DNA of 64,000 nt. Origin: Rhodospirillaceae bacterium. GTDB lineage: Bacteria; Pseudomonadota; Alphaproteobacteria; TMED109. Location of the stretch: positions 1 through 64,000 of the forward strand of contig CACGBM010000004.1 of assembly GCA_902571315.1 (NCBI GenBank), read 5' to 3'. Shown in pieces: positions 5,224 through 10,301 of this stretch. Under the pieces are notes generated by a model. The model worked only from the letters and a program-made list of their open reading frames with translations. It was not told where the DNA came from and searched no databases. Made by a program: the position numbers and the translations under genes. The stretch's first letter is position 1, and each line of letters begins with the position of its first letter.

Positions 5224-6756
5224 ATGCCTATATTCAAAATGGCTTATTTACCACCCTTATTAATTTATGCCTCAGCAGGAATATCTGGACTAACAAGTAT
5301 AGTTGGTATTTTTTTTATAAAAGATTTCTTAAGCTTATCAGCTACTTTTATTGCCTCTATAGGGTTCTGGGCAGGAATACCATGGGCCTTAAAAATGCCC
5401 ATAGGTTTTTTAATTGATAAATATTGGAACCTAAAACAATATTTTGTATATTTAGGAGCCATACTTGTATCAGTAAGCTTGTTAATAATGTACGGCATAT
5501 TGGTTCACAAAAACTCCATGCTAATATATTTGGATATTAAAATTTGGTTTATTTTTAGCTCTATATTAACTCCAATAGGTTATGTATTACAAGACGTTGT
5601 AGCAGATGCTATGACTGTTGAAGCTGTAGAGCCAGACTTTAAAAATGAACCTAAGAATATAGAAAGTAAAATTTCTAAAAAAGAGCACACTGTTGTCCAA
5701 TTATATGGCAGATTTGCCATTATACTAGGTTCTCTAATCGTAGGTTTGATAAATTTTTTAATATTTAAAGACGTTGATACTAACAACCCACAAATAAACT
5801 TACTTTATGGAAAAGTTTATCTGTTTGCACTAATAATTCCTATAATATCAGTGTCTGGTATAATATTATTCAATTATTTAAATAAAATTGAAAAAAAAGC
5901 TATAAAATTTAATACGACCAAATTAGACTACCAAATTTTTATAGGTAGCTGTATTTTTGTTATATTTACAATTTTTTTAGGCTCTTTAAACCTATTATTT
6001 TCTAAAGAAATTATTTTATTAAGTTCATTATTATTAATTGCTATATTAATGCGACTACTGATAAAAGATTTAAAAAAAGCAGATCAACACACTATTGTAG
6101 GAACAGCTATAATAATATTTGTATTTAGAGCTATGCCCAGTCCTGGAGCAGGCTTGAATTGGTTTGAAATTGATATTCTTGGATTTAATCAAAGTTTTTT
6201 TTCCGTATTATCAATCACTTCAGCTTCAATTACTTTAATAGGAATGATTATTTTAAGAAAGGTAATGATGAATACTACTATTGCTAAACTTTTTATTATT
6301 CTTAGTATACTTTCAACTGTGCTATATTTTCCCAGTTTGTTTATGTATTATGAATTGCATGAATATACAAGTATAATTACCAACGGCGTAGTTGATGCTA
6401 AATTCATAGCGATCTTAAATACTGCAGTTGAGTCGCCTTTAGCCCAAGTTGCTATGATACCCTTATTGGCATGGATTGCGAAAAATGCTCCTTCCAAATA
6501 TAAAGCTACTTTTTTTGCTGTGTTTGCCTCTTTTACAAATATAGCCCTATCTGCAAGAGAGTTGTTTACTAGCTATTTAAATAAGATTTTTGTTATTAGT
6601 AGAGAAGTTTTGGATACCGATTCCAATGAAGTTTTAATTAAAGCTAATTATGATAACTTGGATAATCTACTAATTAGTCTCATGGTAATTACATTAGTAA
6701 TACCCTTAACAACTATATATTGTATTCAAAAAACAAAGTTTAAATCAACTGAATAA
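5224..6756 (+). CDS. Major facilitator transporter, folate/biopterin (BT1/FBT)-like
   Basis: An inner-membrane transporter of 510 residues with about 12 hydrophobic segments. The conserved N-terminal half reads PWALKMPIGFLIDKY, with a second-loop signature QDVVADAMTVEAVEP, and the C-terminal half has FRAMPSPGAGLNWF. The AMPSPGAG and QDVVADA motifs recall the folate-biopterin transporter branch of the MFS. The substrate is not readable from sequence. It lies six bases after manC and may be co-transcribed with it, but nothing ties it to mannose metabolism. It ends at a bidirectional hairpin shared with the convergent outer-membrane protein gene. Confidence 0.65.
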   Translation: MPIFKMAYLPPLLIYASAGISGLTSIVGIFFIKDFLSLSATFIASIGFWAGIPWALKMPIGFLIDKYWNLKQYFVYLGAILVSVSLLIMYGILVHKNSMLIYLDIKIWFIFSSILTPIGYVLQDVVADAMTVEAVEPDFKNEPKNIESKISKKEHTVVQLYGRFAIILGSLIVGLINFLIFKDVDTNNPQINLLYGKVYLFALIIPIISVSGIILFNYLNKIEKKAIKFNTTKLDYQIFIGSCIFVIFTIFLGSLNLLFSKEIILLSSLLLIAILMRLLIKDLKKADQHTIVGTAIIIFVFRAMPSPGAGLNWFEIDILGFNQSFFSVLSITSASITLIGMIILRKVMMNTTIAKLFIILSILSTVLYFPSLFMYYELHEYTSIITNGVVDAKFIAILNTAVESPLAQVAMIPLLAWIAKNAPSKYKATFFAVFASFTNIALSARELFTSYLNKIFVISREVLDTDSNEVLIKANYDNLDNLLISLMVITLVIPLTTIYCIQKTKFKSTE

Positions 6757-6760
6757 AAAA

Positions 6761-6788
6761 AATCCTTCCCTAATTCTAGGGAAGGATT
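6761..6788 (-). terminator. Intrinsic terminator shared by convergent genes
   Basis: A perfect 12-bp inverted repeat (AATCCTTCCCTA and TAGGGAAGGATT) surrounds a four-base loop. On the minus strand it is followed by seven or more T residues, so it is a canonical rho-independent terminator for the outer-membrane protein gene at 6811-8061. On the plus strand the tail is only TTTAAAT, weaker but possibly usable by the transporter gene. It is the only clear intrinsic terminator I found in the window. Confidence 0.85.
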
Positions 6789-6810
6789 TAAATCAACAAT
6801 TATTTAGATT

Positions 6811-8061
6811 TTAAAACTTAAGTTTTAAAGAACCAGAAACAGTAGTTTCTGAATAATCATCTCTATTTGTGACTTCATTCACTGCAAGATAACCTGAAAT
6901 CTTACTCTGTAAGTTTATCATCAGTCCTGCACCGTAAGTTACATAACCGTCAGGAGCAGATGCTGCTAAATCAGCACCAGAGTCATTCACTGCTTCATTG
7001 TTATAAGCTGCTGATGTAGTATCTTCACTCACATAAGATAAGTCAACGAAAGGTGTAATCTTAGCACTTGTAGATAAAGCAATGCCCAGACCTACTTCAG
7101 TCATATCAGAGCTGTAAGTTTTTCCTGCTATTGAGTCATCTCTTGTAGTAAATCCAGCACCATCTATAGAGTTACCGTCGTTTGGTACAACGTCAGTAAA
7201 AGCAGGCACGTCTAAGTCGAAGTTTCTGTAAGCTACTCTTGGTCTAAATGATAGTTTACCTCTGTTCATTTCACCTGATACTCCTAGATGATAGTACATT
7301 ACGTCTGCTGTAATATCACTAGCTGAAATGGTCGTACCACTTCCTAGATCTTCTCTAGTAGTGTCGATTTCATATTCACCTTGCCCGGCACCAGCTGAGA
7401 TCGTAACCGCTCCAGTATTTAAACCAACATAAAGACCTATAGTTTCACCTTCAGTTTTTATGTTTCCTTTGTTAACACTTGTGTCAATATCTGAGTCAAA
7501 TGCTGTGTATGATAATCCAACAATTAGATTTCCTAATCTTTTATCAACACCTACTGTTACTGCAGATGCATCACCATCATAATTGTTACTGTCTAATTGG
7601 ACGTTAGTGAAGGTTTGATCATTCTCAAAGTTAGAATTAGCAAAATTAGTCCAAACACTTAATCCACCAACAATATGGTTGGCTGCCATTCCAATCCCGT
7701 TTCCGTTTGAAGAATATGACATATGTGCAGCTGTATCACTACTGTGAGACATTGCAGCAGATAATCTTCCTGAAACCGCACCTATAACTGAGTTTGCAGC
7801 CATACGAGCAATATCACCACCTACAATAGCAGAACTGTTAGTTCTTCCTCCTCCAGCATAGGCACAATTAAGACCAGTATAAACCCCGTAATCTCCAGTG
7901 CCTTGGGTCACAAAGTCTCCTGAAGCAGCATATAAGTGAATACCATATACATCGTTAGTACAACTTAAACCATAATCTCCATAAGCATAAGCTCTACTAT
8001 TAAGTACCAGTGCTGACAAGGTTAGCAAACTTAGTACCAAAAAGTTTTTAAAAAAATTCAT
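6811..8061 (-). CDS. Outer-membrane beta-barrel protein (autotransporter-barrel-like), probably abundant
   Basis: I place the start at the ATG at 8061, preceded by GGAG at six-base spacing, rather than the upstream in-frame ATG at 8109. This leaves 416 residues starting with a signal peptide, MNFFKNFLVLSLLTLSAL, with a probable cut after SRAYA. The mature part has a Gly/Ser/Ala-rich N-terminus with two Cys (LSC, LNC), then alternating amphipathic strands from about residue 150. It ends SGSLKLKF, a terminal Phe as BamA substrates have. It resembles an autotransporter translocator barrel with a very short passenger. G+C is about 40% in a sampled line against about 22-30% in neighbours. With a strong ribosome site and its own terminator this suggests high expression; recent acquisition is the alternative. 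Confidence 0.75.
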   Translation of the reverse strand: MNFFKNFLVLSLLTLSALVLNSRAYAYGDYGLSCTNDVYGIHLYAASGDFVTQGTGDYGVYTGLNCAYAGGGRTNSSAIVGGDIARMAANSVIGAVSGRLSAAMSHSSDTAAHMSYSSNGNGIGMAANHIVGGLSVWTNFANSNFENDQTFTNVQLDSNNYDGDASAVTVGVDKRLGNLIVGLSYTAFDSDIDTSVNKGNIKTEGETIGLYVGLNTGAVTISAGAGQGEYEIDTTREDLGSGTTISASDITADVMYYHLGVSGEMNRGKLSFRPRVAYRNFDLDVPAFTDVVPNDGNSIDGAGFTTRDDSIAGKTYSSDMTEVGLGIALSTSAKITPFVDLSYVSEDTTSAAYNNEAVNDSGADLAASAPDGYVTYGAGLMINLQSKISGYLAVNEVTNRDDYSETTVSGSLKLKF

Positions 8062-8076
8062 AATTTTCTCCATTAA

Positions 8077-8104
8077 TAAACAATTGTTTAACAAAATAAG
8101 TATA
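8077..8104 (-). promoter_or_regulatory. Putative promoter and palindromic operator of the outer-membrane protein gene
   Basis: A perfect 14-bp palindrome, TAAACAATTGTTTA, lies at 8077-8090, just upstream of the ribosome site (GGAG, 8071-8068). Eight bases further upstream on the minus strand is TATACT (8104-8099), one mismatch from the sigma-70 -10 consensus. I see no convincing -35 for it. The palindrome would sit at about the transcription start, where a repressor could act. Both calls are by eye. Confidence 0.35.
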
Positions 8105-8180
8105 CGCATAAATTCATAATTTAAAATAAGTTTTTATATATTTTAAAAATATCTAAAAATGTTGCAAATATGCCACAGTC

Positions 8181-10301
8181 TTATTTAATAATACTTTCTA
8201 ATCTTTCCTTTTCTTTGTCTGATATAAGAAAAATAATATCGGCTGATAAAGGTATTCCTTTTAAGCCATAAGCACAAAAACGTTCATTAGGAAATTCACA
8301 ACTTCCAAACCAAAAACCGTAAGTTAATTCATTAAATAGTCCTTTTTCTATAGCTTTCTTAAGCAAATTTATACTCTTTTTTATTGCTAAGTCATCAAGA
8401 GAAGAATTAGCTAAAATACTATTAACTTGTATAAGAGAGCAAAATGATTCTATTCCAACTATTTTTTTCTGACATATTTCAACTGCATCATTTAATTTAT
8501 TTTTAATCACAGCGTAGGATAAAAATGGTAAGAGCAAATCGCCCCTTTTAGGCATTTTTTCAGCTACAAGAAGAGCTTTATGAAACCATTTATCATAATC
8601 AATAGTTATTGAATCTCTTTTATAGCCACTATTTACAAATTTATAATAGTATTCAGCATCCATTTTCATAGCTGTAGCTAACAAAGAAGAACTAAATTTT
8701 TTTGATTCAATAATCTTTTCAGCTTTACATTTTAAGACATTCATTACATCTAGTTCTTGATCATTAATATCTTCATTATTTCTTGACATAACACTAGATG
8801 TAAATATAAAAATATATCTATTTAGAACAAAATCTCCTCTTTGATAATCCTTATAGAAACCTAGACATTCATTTTTATTAGCATTTTCATTACTTTTTAT
8901 GCTCTCTGATATAGCTGTATAATTTAATAAATTATTAATTTTTGTAGAGTGATAAGTTAAAAATGCACCATAAAAAAGAAAAAAACCTATACATGCGGTG
9001 CATAATGATAAAAAAAGTCTGCTGAATTTATTATTATCATATATTTTTGGTTTTTTAATAGAACTAAATTCATACGTAATAAAACAACTTACTACTACTG
9101 CAAATATTGTAAAAGTACCTGTCCACAAAAACCAAAAGCAATTAATTTTAAAAAATAACAACCAACCTAACTTTGCAGAAAAACCTAGTTTATTGGATTC
9201 TCTGAAAATAAAATATACGTATGCTAAATATAATATTCCTCCTACTAAACCCAATGATACCAAATGTTCAGCAATTTCATTATGGGTATGAAAATGAAGA
9301 TTATAGCCTAGTCTTAGTTCATCATACTGCCAATTCTTCATATTCTCTAAAAGCAGTTCAGGAACTACACCCCATCCGTTACCAATAATTAAAGTCTTAA
9401 AATTAAGTAAACTATATAGACTAGTTTCAATTATTTTTCCTCTTACTACTGGAGCATCTAATATAGTACCTTTAATATTCTCTGGAAGATTAAAGTCTCC
9501 TGACCAGAAAAAGATAGAACAAAAAAGAATTAAAAATGAAATTAAACAAATTAAAAATACGAACATTCCATTTGAAAATAAAAATATCTTTAATTGATTG
9601 AATGTTTGATTTCTTTTAAATGAATTAATACCATAATACAATAAACCAGTAATAAGTGTTGTCATCCAAAATAGAACTGCCGCTCTATTGTCTAACAATA
9701 ATAAATATAGGCCTAAAATTAAAAAAACTAAAATATTAAGATAGATTTTATTAGAAAATGTAGTAAATAAAATAAAGCATAACACTCCATAAAAACACAA
9801 ATAATCTGTAAAAAAATAAAAGCTAATTGGAAGACCTTGCCAACGAGGAAAAAATGTAAAAAAGCTTACGAATGCGGTTAAAAATAATAAATTTATGAAT
9901 ATAGAAAATCTTATTTTTTTAATTAGCATTGTTTGAGAAAAAATAATACACATTATAGTTAAATCAAAATACCAAAAAACTCCTTGGCCTATTTGAGGTG
10001 AACCTGAAAAAGAAACATTCGGATTTTTATTAAATAAACTTGTAATTAATCCAAAAATAGCTAGCAAAAATGGTATAACTATTAAAGGATGTTTAAGCTG
10101 CCCTAGGTTATATTTGTTAAAATATAATAATATTGAAAAATAAAAAAACATAATTCCACACAACGAATGTAAGAAAATTACTTGTGTGTCAATTTGAGGG
10201 AAAGTACCACTTAGCATAAAATATGGCATTGCCGCAAATATTACCCAAGTTGCAAGAAGAGAAAATAAAGTGGATATAATAGTATTGTATTTTAAATGCA
10301 A
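8181..10301 (-). CDS. O-antigen ligase / polymerase family membrane protein (WaaL/Wzy_C type)
   Basis: A 706-residue inner-membrane protein. The first roughly 440 residues form about 12 hydrophobic helices. The large periplasmic loop holds the Wzy_C hallmark: a GNGWGVVPE region followed by HFHTHNEIAEHLVSLGLVGG (about 340-359). In this family, conserved His/Arg residues join glycan from undecaprenyl diphosphate to a lipid or protein acceptor. The C-terminal roughly 240 residues are soluble, helical and TPR-like, as in Wzy_C_2/PglL-like members. It could be an O-antigen ligase, a polymerase or a protein O-oligosaccharyltransferase; these cannot be separated by motif alone. It is divergent from gmd. 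Confidence 0.75.
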   Translation of the reverse strand: MHLKYNTIISTLFSLLATWVIFAAMPYFMLSGTFPQIDTQVIFLHSLCGIMFFYFSILLYFNKYNLGQLKHPLIVIPFLLAIFGLITSLFNKNPNVSFSGSPQIGQGVFWYFDLTIMCIIFSQTMLIKKIRFSIFINLLFLTAFVSFFTFFPRWQGLPISFYFFTDYLCFYGVLCFILFTTFSNKIYLNILVFLILGLYLLLLDNRAAVLFWMTTLITGLLYYGINSFKRNQTFNQLKIFLFSNGMFVFLICLISFLILFCSIFFWSGDFNLPENIKGTILDAPVVRGKIIETSLYSLLNFKTLIIGNGWGVVPELLLENMKNWQYDELRLGYNLHFHTHNEIAEHLVSLGLVGGILYLAYVYFIFRESNKLGFSAKLGWLLFFKINCFWFLWTGTFTIFAVVVSCFITYEFSSIKKPKIYDNNKFSRLFLSLCTACIGFFLFYGAFLTYHSTKINNLLNYTAISESIKSNENANKNECLGFYKDYQRGDFVLNRYIFIFTSSVMSRNNEDINDQELDVMNVLKCKAEKIIESKKFSSSLLATAMKMDAEYYYKFVNSGYKRDSITIDYDKWFHKALLVAEKMPKRGDLLLPFLSYAVIKNKLNDAVEICQKKIVGIESFCSLIQVNSILANSSLDDLAIKKSINLLKKAIEKGLFNELTYGFWFGSCEFPNERFCAYGLKGIPLSADIIFLISDKEKERLESIIK

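Follow-up and report, generated by a model that had tools for sequence, protein, structure and literature searches.

The outer-membrane barrel gene described here is likely to encode a vertically inherited, lineage-specific minimal autotransporter that ranks with the outer-membrane proteins expressed most heavily in a marine alphaproteobacterial family. It lies in a stretch of 64,000 nucleotides from a Rhodospirillaceae bacterium (contig CACGBM010000004.1, positions 1 to 64,000; the window), and we followed it through codon usage, gene order, structure prediction and the promoters of related genomes. The gene has the strongest codon signature among the sampled genes of its genome, and an 18-bp dyad ahead of its promoter seems to be shared with porin, ribosomal and tRNA genes of these bacteria. 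What phages, grazers and nutrients encounter on a streamlined marine bacterium is set by its dominant surface proteins, and in uncultured clades most of these are, to our knowledge, unnamed. This work nominates one such candidate from sequence alone, together with a concrete and testable control site that would join outer-membrane and translation genes.

A probable minimal autotransporter of a known fold class

The gene and the parts of its product are as follows.

6811–8061, minus strand: coding sequence of the 416-residue autotransporter-type barrel protein (P0001), matching PF03797 at residues 153–394 (E = 3e-16)
8062–8071, minus strand: ribosome-binding site, GGAG plus a 6-nt spacer, from the sequence
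7984–8061, minus strand: apparent signal peptide, about residues 1–26, by eye (hydrophobic stretch ending in AYA; model helix at 2–21)
7834–7983, minus strand: N-terminal passenger-like segment, about residues 27–76, with Cys34 and Cys66, from cysteine conservation
7750–7836, minus strand: predicted helix, residues 76–104, at the place of the autotransporter pore-spanning linker helix, from a low-confidence model
6814–7662, minus strand: predicted 12-strand barrel, residues 134–416, with a C-terminal Phe at its end, from low-confidence models (VIA Z 27.1 to NalP)

Open reading frames (ORFs) were called mechanically, and the longest reading of this one spans 6811–8109 on the minus strand with a start at 8109. 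The GGAG at 8068–8071 points to the ATG at 8061, immediately preceded by GGAGAAAATT, as the start. A well-spaced GGAG had been part of the original prediction and was borne out, with its 6-nt spacer before this ATG; the motif is seen in 11/11 orthologue leaders. At the other end of the gene, a 20-bp perfect palindrome (TTTAAAACTTAAGTTTTAAA, 6810–6829) overlaps the stop codon.

The PF03797 (autotransporter beta-domain) match scores 60.4 bits against a curated cut-off of 26 and is the sole Pfam family in the protein; NCBIfam, and phmmer against the PDB, gave no match at an E value of 1. The source genome (1.03 Mb, 54% complete) holds a single barrel copy and no second PF03797 match at an E value of 1. 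Two structure models, both made from alignments of five sequences only and both of low confidence (pLDDT 45.6 and 54.3, the second covering residues 71–416), place twelve strands after the helix at residues 76–104. At the head of the VIA-align list stands NalP (Z 27.1, rmsd 3.1, 273 aligned), followed by EspP (26.9), Hbp (25.8) and EstA (25.5), with AIDA-I and BrkA close behind, and the best non-autotransporter among the chains listed reaches Z 19.9. Autotransporters likewise rank first in Foldseek with the full-length model, and the structure alignments to the EspP and NalP chains start no later than the helix in the second model. The 12-strand autotransporter-type barrel expected at the outset is supported by the PF03797 match and by these low-confidence models.

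The expectation that there is hardly any passenger domain agrees with an N-terminal segment of about 50 residues, in which no Pfam domain was matched. The two cysteines anticipated near the N terminus are Cys34 and Cys66, invariant in 11/11 full-length sequences; the stretch between them varies in length (31 residues here and up to 57 in orthologues, as counted on the alignment), and the helix region is well conserved among orthologues. A Cys34–Cys66 disulphide may close a surface loop, the placement of both disulphide and helix being approximate at the low confidence of the two models. In terms of fold, the protein adds a lineage-specific member to a known class, one whose passenger is minimal.

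Base composition, distribution and origin

With 38.3% G+C, the barrel gene exceeds all 52 other window ORFs that reach 150 residues, which have 20–36%. The claim that it is unusually G+C-rich held in rank and not in size, about 42% having been given for a sampled coding line. Codons chosen as in the remaining window genes would be expected to give this protein a coding sequence of 36.9% G+C. Because this expectation is so near the observed value and GC3 is 21.6% (GC1/GC2/GC3 of.475/.458/.216), the excess is almost wholly due to amino-acid composition and not to codon choice: Gly, Ser, Ala, Thr and Asp account for 49, 45, 42, 35 and 33 of the 416 residues. Across orthologous loci, the gene has 36.1 to 44.6% G+C compared to 26.7 to 30.3% in flanking ORFs, and is raised in 13/13 (3 of them with partial genes).

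The barrel protein has matches in 14 of 61 genomes searched, its own included. The barrel profile has matches in 19 of the 28 genomes of its taxonomic family; the family matches comprise 14 orthologues in genera g1 to g6 (3 partial), and in g8, a genus of larger genomes, five weak matches (25–28 bits) to ORFs of roughly 830–920 residues. Among the 21 small-genome assemblies, 7 yielded no barrel gene, and 5 of these belong to a single genus. There was no match at 1e-10 in 189 other genomes drawn from the class, of which at least one (G012) belongs to the family, and no relatives were found among viral contigs. Relatives that bear a name are assemblies from single cells or metagenomes, deposited as Rhodospirillaceae or Rickettsiales. 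In one genome (G013), two contigs (C4 and C9; loci L010 and L015) carry barrel copies of equal score with the same flanks over the stretch compared, a duplication or an assembly artefact. Elsewhere in the window's own genome (G000, contig C2, locus L036, 12511–15921), three adjoining ORFs look flagellin-like by eye from their N-terminal sequences, in what is a small-genome marine bacterium.

As far as contigs extend, g1, g3 and g6 share the order of a wzy-like gene, the barrel gene, a convergent MFS-like gene and a manC-like gene; g2, g4 and g5 have partly different neighbours. The names wzy-like, MFS-like and manC were given by eye; in Pfam the wzy-like gene has no match and the MFS-like gene a weak one below cut-off. 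In the window, the conserved upstream position is held by a 706-residue membrane protein (8181–10301, minus strand) that resembles an O-antigen ligase or polymerase by eye and has no Pfam match at 0.01. Identity of the barrel among orthologues declines with kinship.

The original prediction had offered acquisition as its alternative to high expression, and the top rank in G+C among the 53 window ORFs is what a foreign gene from a more G+C-rich donor would lead one to expect. That idea is contradicted by the conserved synteny and the kin-ordered identity; the small gap between expected and observed G+C, the low GC3 and the 0/189 matches in other class genomes also speak against it, and we regard it as barely credible. 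On this comparative evidence, the barrel gene is very probably inherited vertically and specific to the lineage.

Codon usage and expression

The codon signature was measured against 465 ORFs of at least 100 residues, taken from 458 kb of the 1.03-Mb genome (54% complete), with the window included. In the barrel gene, 43 of 106 codons for N, D, Y, F and H end in C, compared to 16.8% in the background (p = 6.2e-9). For C-ending two-fold codons, the gene ranks first of the 465 ORFs, and the next is a Porin_4 gene (p = 8e-4). Codon context was considered as a cause of this bias and rejected: after correction for the next base, the barrel gene has a z of 6.3, with the Porin_4 gene the highest among 442 other ORFs at 3.66, and correction for the next two bases leaves the barrel gene at 5.9. 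The bias is distributed over the gene (11/34, 15/36 and 17/36). It also extends to orthologues, in which the C-ending fraction exceeds the local background in 13/13 (3 partial) and does so at p < 0.05 in 11/13, the two without significance being G007 and G013.

Pooling the 11 full-length orthologues, GGT (p = 4e-12), AAC (1e-11), TTC, AAG, CGT and TAC are raised, AGG, GGC, GGG, TCC and TCT are lowered, and the rise of GAC is weak (p = 0.03). A bias to U at four-fold codons is clear for GGT alone, and TCT goes the opposite way.

A comparison of codon adaptation index (CAI) with ribosomal protein genes had been suggested as a check. Run against a reference of 26 ORFs from the ribosomal cluster on contig 22, which includes EF-Tu, it gives 0.666 for the barrel gene, a mean of 0.719 for the 52 other window genes and 0.700 for the ribosomal-cluster genes themselves (leave-one-out). 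As a test this fails: the ribosomal-cluster genes of this genome use codons like the remaining genes, and since they carry no bias, a CAI built on them is uninformative here. By log-likelihood ratio, the barrel gene leans slightly toward the ribosomal genes, at 0.0142 per codon, a value that one of the 52 window genes exceeds. A CAI referred to ribosomal genes can thus overlook the gene with the strongest codon bias in its genome.

PMC7374057 describes a preference for C at two-fold codons and for U at four-fold codons that grows with gene ancestry and is more marked again in genes presumed to be highly expressed, a class it equates with ribosomal proteins and tRNA synthetases; where genomes have less than about 35% G+C, it finds that GC3 drops toward this class. 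Set against that pattern, our genome has unbiased ribosomal genes and a barrel gene whose GC3 is slightly above expectation. Of the signs of translational selection, the barrel gene shows the enrichment of C-ending two-fold codons as that paper defines it, and it lacks a high CAI. We read the codon data as pointing to stronger translational selection on the barrel gene than on the ribosomal genes, and the protein is probably among the most heavily made surface proteins of this little-known marine bacterial family. The earlier attribution of the codon bias to high expression is in this respect partly upheld, through the C-ending two-fold codons and GGT, whereas its argument from G+C excess is not.

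A predicted control site ahead of surface and translation genes

The leader and the 3' end of the gene carry four further elements.

8160–8177, minus strand: 18-bp dyad TGTGGCATATTTGCAACA, differing at 1 position from TGTTGYA-N4-TRCAACA and taken as a putative activator site, from 10/11 orthologue upstream regions
8099–8104, minus strand: predicted -10 box TATACT, 55 bp after the dyad, from sequence conservation in the genus
8077–8090, minus strand: 14-bp perfect palindrome TAAACAATTGTTTA, 16–29 bases before the ATG and just downstream of the -10, from the sequence
6760–6789, minus strand: strong intrinsic terminator behind the barrel gene, with a 13-pair stem and T tail

Upstream of barrel orthologues, the dyad has 0 or 1 mismatch in 8/11 regions and 2 in two more, so that 10/11, our own included, carry it at up to 2 mismatches; it is absent from the G007 region (4 mismatches). 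A different perfect 18-bp palindrome (TGTGATATTAATATCACA) stands 103 bp before the barrel start of G007 (L025), at about the distance of the dyad. TATACT or TATAAT follows the dyad by 55–56 bp in 5/5 genomes of the genus with a readable leader (the genus has six genomes, and the contig of G005 ends inside the gene); in two g6 leaders the -10 is less clear, with other or several possible hexamers.

The dyad was first spotted by eye in barrel leaders and then tested on other promoters, and because of this order the porin, rpsL and tRNA sites are the ones independent of its discovery. In our genome sample, with 442 upstream regions, it occurs at up to 1 mismatch only at the barrel gene and in the interval between the Porin_4 gene and its divergent neighbour, a sigma-70-family (rpoH-like) gene (locus L042, contig C9 of G000, 6238–6255). 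The 21 small genomes contain 43 sites compared to 12 for a reversed control, and seven g8 genomes contain 6 compared to 4. Of the 43, 34 precede the barrel gene (8), porin-type genes (14), rpsL (7) or tRNA-Arg-ACG (5), and the remaining nine lie inside ORFs or before other genes.

Eight of the 14 porin-type genes match Porin_4 above cut-off and six have no Pfam porin match above it. Two of these six were compared with the G000 porin by BLASTP (38% and 69% identity), two resemble the 38%-identity one in their start and in lying next to an rpoH-like gene, and the last two look like porins by eye, with a Pfam match below cut-off in one. When Porin_4-type loci of small genomes were read directly, the dyad was present at up to 2 mismatches in 8/14 readable ones and not in the other 6/14. 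Its distance to the porin start is 225 bp in G000 and only 19 bp in G013 and G019, and the g8 porin loci read have no dyad. This reading took in 28 of 30 loci, of which 3/28 were unreadable, two of these (G024 and G013 C7) being covered by other searches.

For rpsL, read without selection, the dyad stands at 96–100 bp in 8 of the 21 family genomes that have the gene: all five of g1 and three of g6 (one at 2 mismatches), and 0/13 others. Outside the family, 0/29 readable alphaproteobacterial rpsL upstream regions bear it at up to 2 mismatches, the best having 3 (46 genomes with a match, 30 loci covered, one start not found). As the dyad is missing before rpsL in 13/21 and in 6/14 Porin_4-type loci, the regulon differs between genera. 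In five genomes (L092 284–301, L095, L098, L101 and L107), the dyad lies upstream of tRNA-Arg (ACG), itself before a gene that looks AMP-ligase-like by eye.

We read the dyad as a putative activator site of the strongest promoters, and as a new element: a predicted control site common to surface and translation genes. A literature search on the protein and on the site, the motif being entered as two half-site strings, found no description in the partial texts it covered. The half-sites have what we take to be FNR-like spacing, and CRP/FNR was considered as the binder. It was looked for and not found: at an E value of 0.001, PF13545 (the CRP/FNR-type HTH) has a match in 0/21 of the small, incomplete genomes, and in g8 5/7 larger genomes match, all below cut-off.

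The 14-bp palindrome noted in the original prediction is present between the predicted -10 and the ribosome-binding site, and it is not rare of itself, the window having 18 such perfect palindromes compared to 13.5 expected from base composition. Looking for it before other genes, as had been proposed, gave none: the exact 15-mer TTAAACAATTGTTTA occurs in 3 of the 6 genomes of the genus and there only before the barrel gene (the leader of a fourth, G005, lies beyond its contig end). It was therefore discarded as a shared operator. Some other species have different palindromic sequences at about the same place in the leader.

At the 3' end, the expected single strong terminator was confirmed as the strongest listed in the window. 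Terminators of that class follow 3 of 452 sampled ORFs of the genome, the barrel gene's being the best, and in the 15 barrel loci inspected by eye, the gene's 3' end shows a hairpin with a T run.

Alternative readings and proposed mechanism

Both leader elements could be explained in other ways. The dyad might be a repressor operator, an architectural site for a nucleoid protein or a weak terminator of the upstream gene, given that it sits close behind the upstream stop in several loci, is followed by T runs in some, stands 19 bp before the porin start in G013 and G019, and has no known regulator. Against this, its letters are conserved rather than their pairing (the arms pair incompletely in G002 and in the window), the same site precedes porin-type genes with other neighbours, rpsL and tRNA-Arg, and the -10 keeps its 55–56 bp in 5/5 genomes of the genus; these alternatives are doubtful, and we prefer the activator site. 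The palindrome, lying just past the -10 and having counterparts at about the same place in some species, could likewise be a 5'-terminal stem-loop that stabilizes the transcript, as one does for ompA mRNA in E. coli. Folding of eight leaders gave -0.1 to -2.7 kcal/mol (z -0.15 to 0.86), no better than shuffles, which leaves an RNA hairpin unsupported and makes a stabilizing role quite improbable.

For the protein, a rival to surface display is a porin-like open channel whose N-terminal segment is a plug or a leftover. The shortness of that segment fits such a channel, as do the predicted control site and codon signature that the barrel has in common with a porin. Yet the genome has a separate Porin_4 gene, both cysteines are invariant, the helix region is well conserved, and the fold in the low-confidence models is that of an autotransporter translocator with its helix; we find the channel unlikely.

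Under the preferred reading of a minimal autotransporter, the barrel would be inserted into the outer membrane with the help of SurA and BAM, and the helix would sit in its pore and keep the N-terminal segment, some 50 residues looped by a disulphide, exposed on the cell surface. From the dyad, a DNA-binding activator would drive the barrel promoter along with those of the main porin, rpsL and tRNA-Arg, such that surface and translation capacity would be set together.

We tentatively advance a broader possibility, for which we claim less than for the minimal autotransporter itself. In these ocean bacteria, which presumably grow slowly, a single undescribed activator (TGTTGYA-N4-TRCAACA) may switch on the cell's strongest promoters, those of the surface barrel, the main porin, the str operon and tRNA-Arg, as a surface-and-translation regulon tied to growth, and codon optimization may have moved from ribosomal to outer-membrane proteins. 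If true, outer-membrane proteins would be the costliest proteins of the cell.

Relation to known systems

The closest known systems are the type Va autotransporters. NalP, EspP, Hbp, BrkA and EstA likewise have a 12-strand C-terminal barrel with a preceding helix, seen here in low-confidence models, and the type likewise has PF03797, a signal peptide (apparent here, by eye) and a C-terminal Phe. The protein differs in that its passenger-like segment is only about 50 residues long and has no Pfam domain, and its sequence identity in structure alignments to the NalP, EspP, Hbp, BrkA, EstA and AIDA-I chains is 8–16%.

Porin_4 proteins (PF13609) of the same genomes are a different family, as the barrel matches PF03797 alone in Pfam, yet their genes likewise have the dyad upstream in 8 of the 14 readable small-genome loci, and that of our own genome has the second strongest codon signature after the barrel. 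For the dyad, the nearest parallel may be Fis, which activates stable-RNA and translation promoters from upstream sites in E. coli. Here a dyad likewise lies upstream of strong tRNA and translation promoters; it differs from the Fis case in being an evenly spaced 18-bp dyad with TGTTGYA arms that also stands before outer-membrane protein genes, and in being found in this family and before rpsL in none of 29 other alphaproteobacteria.
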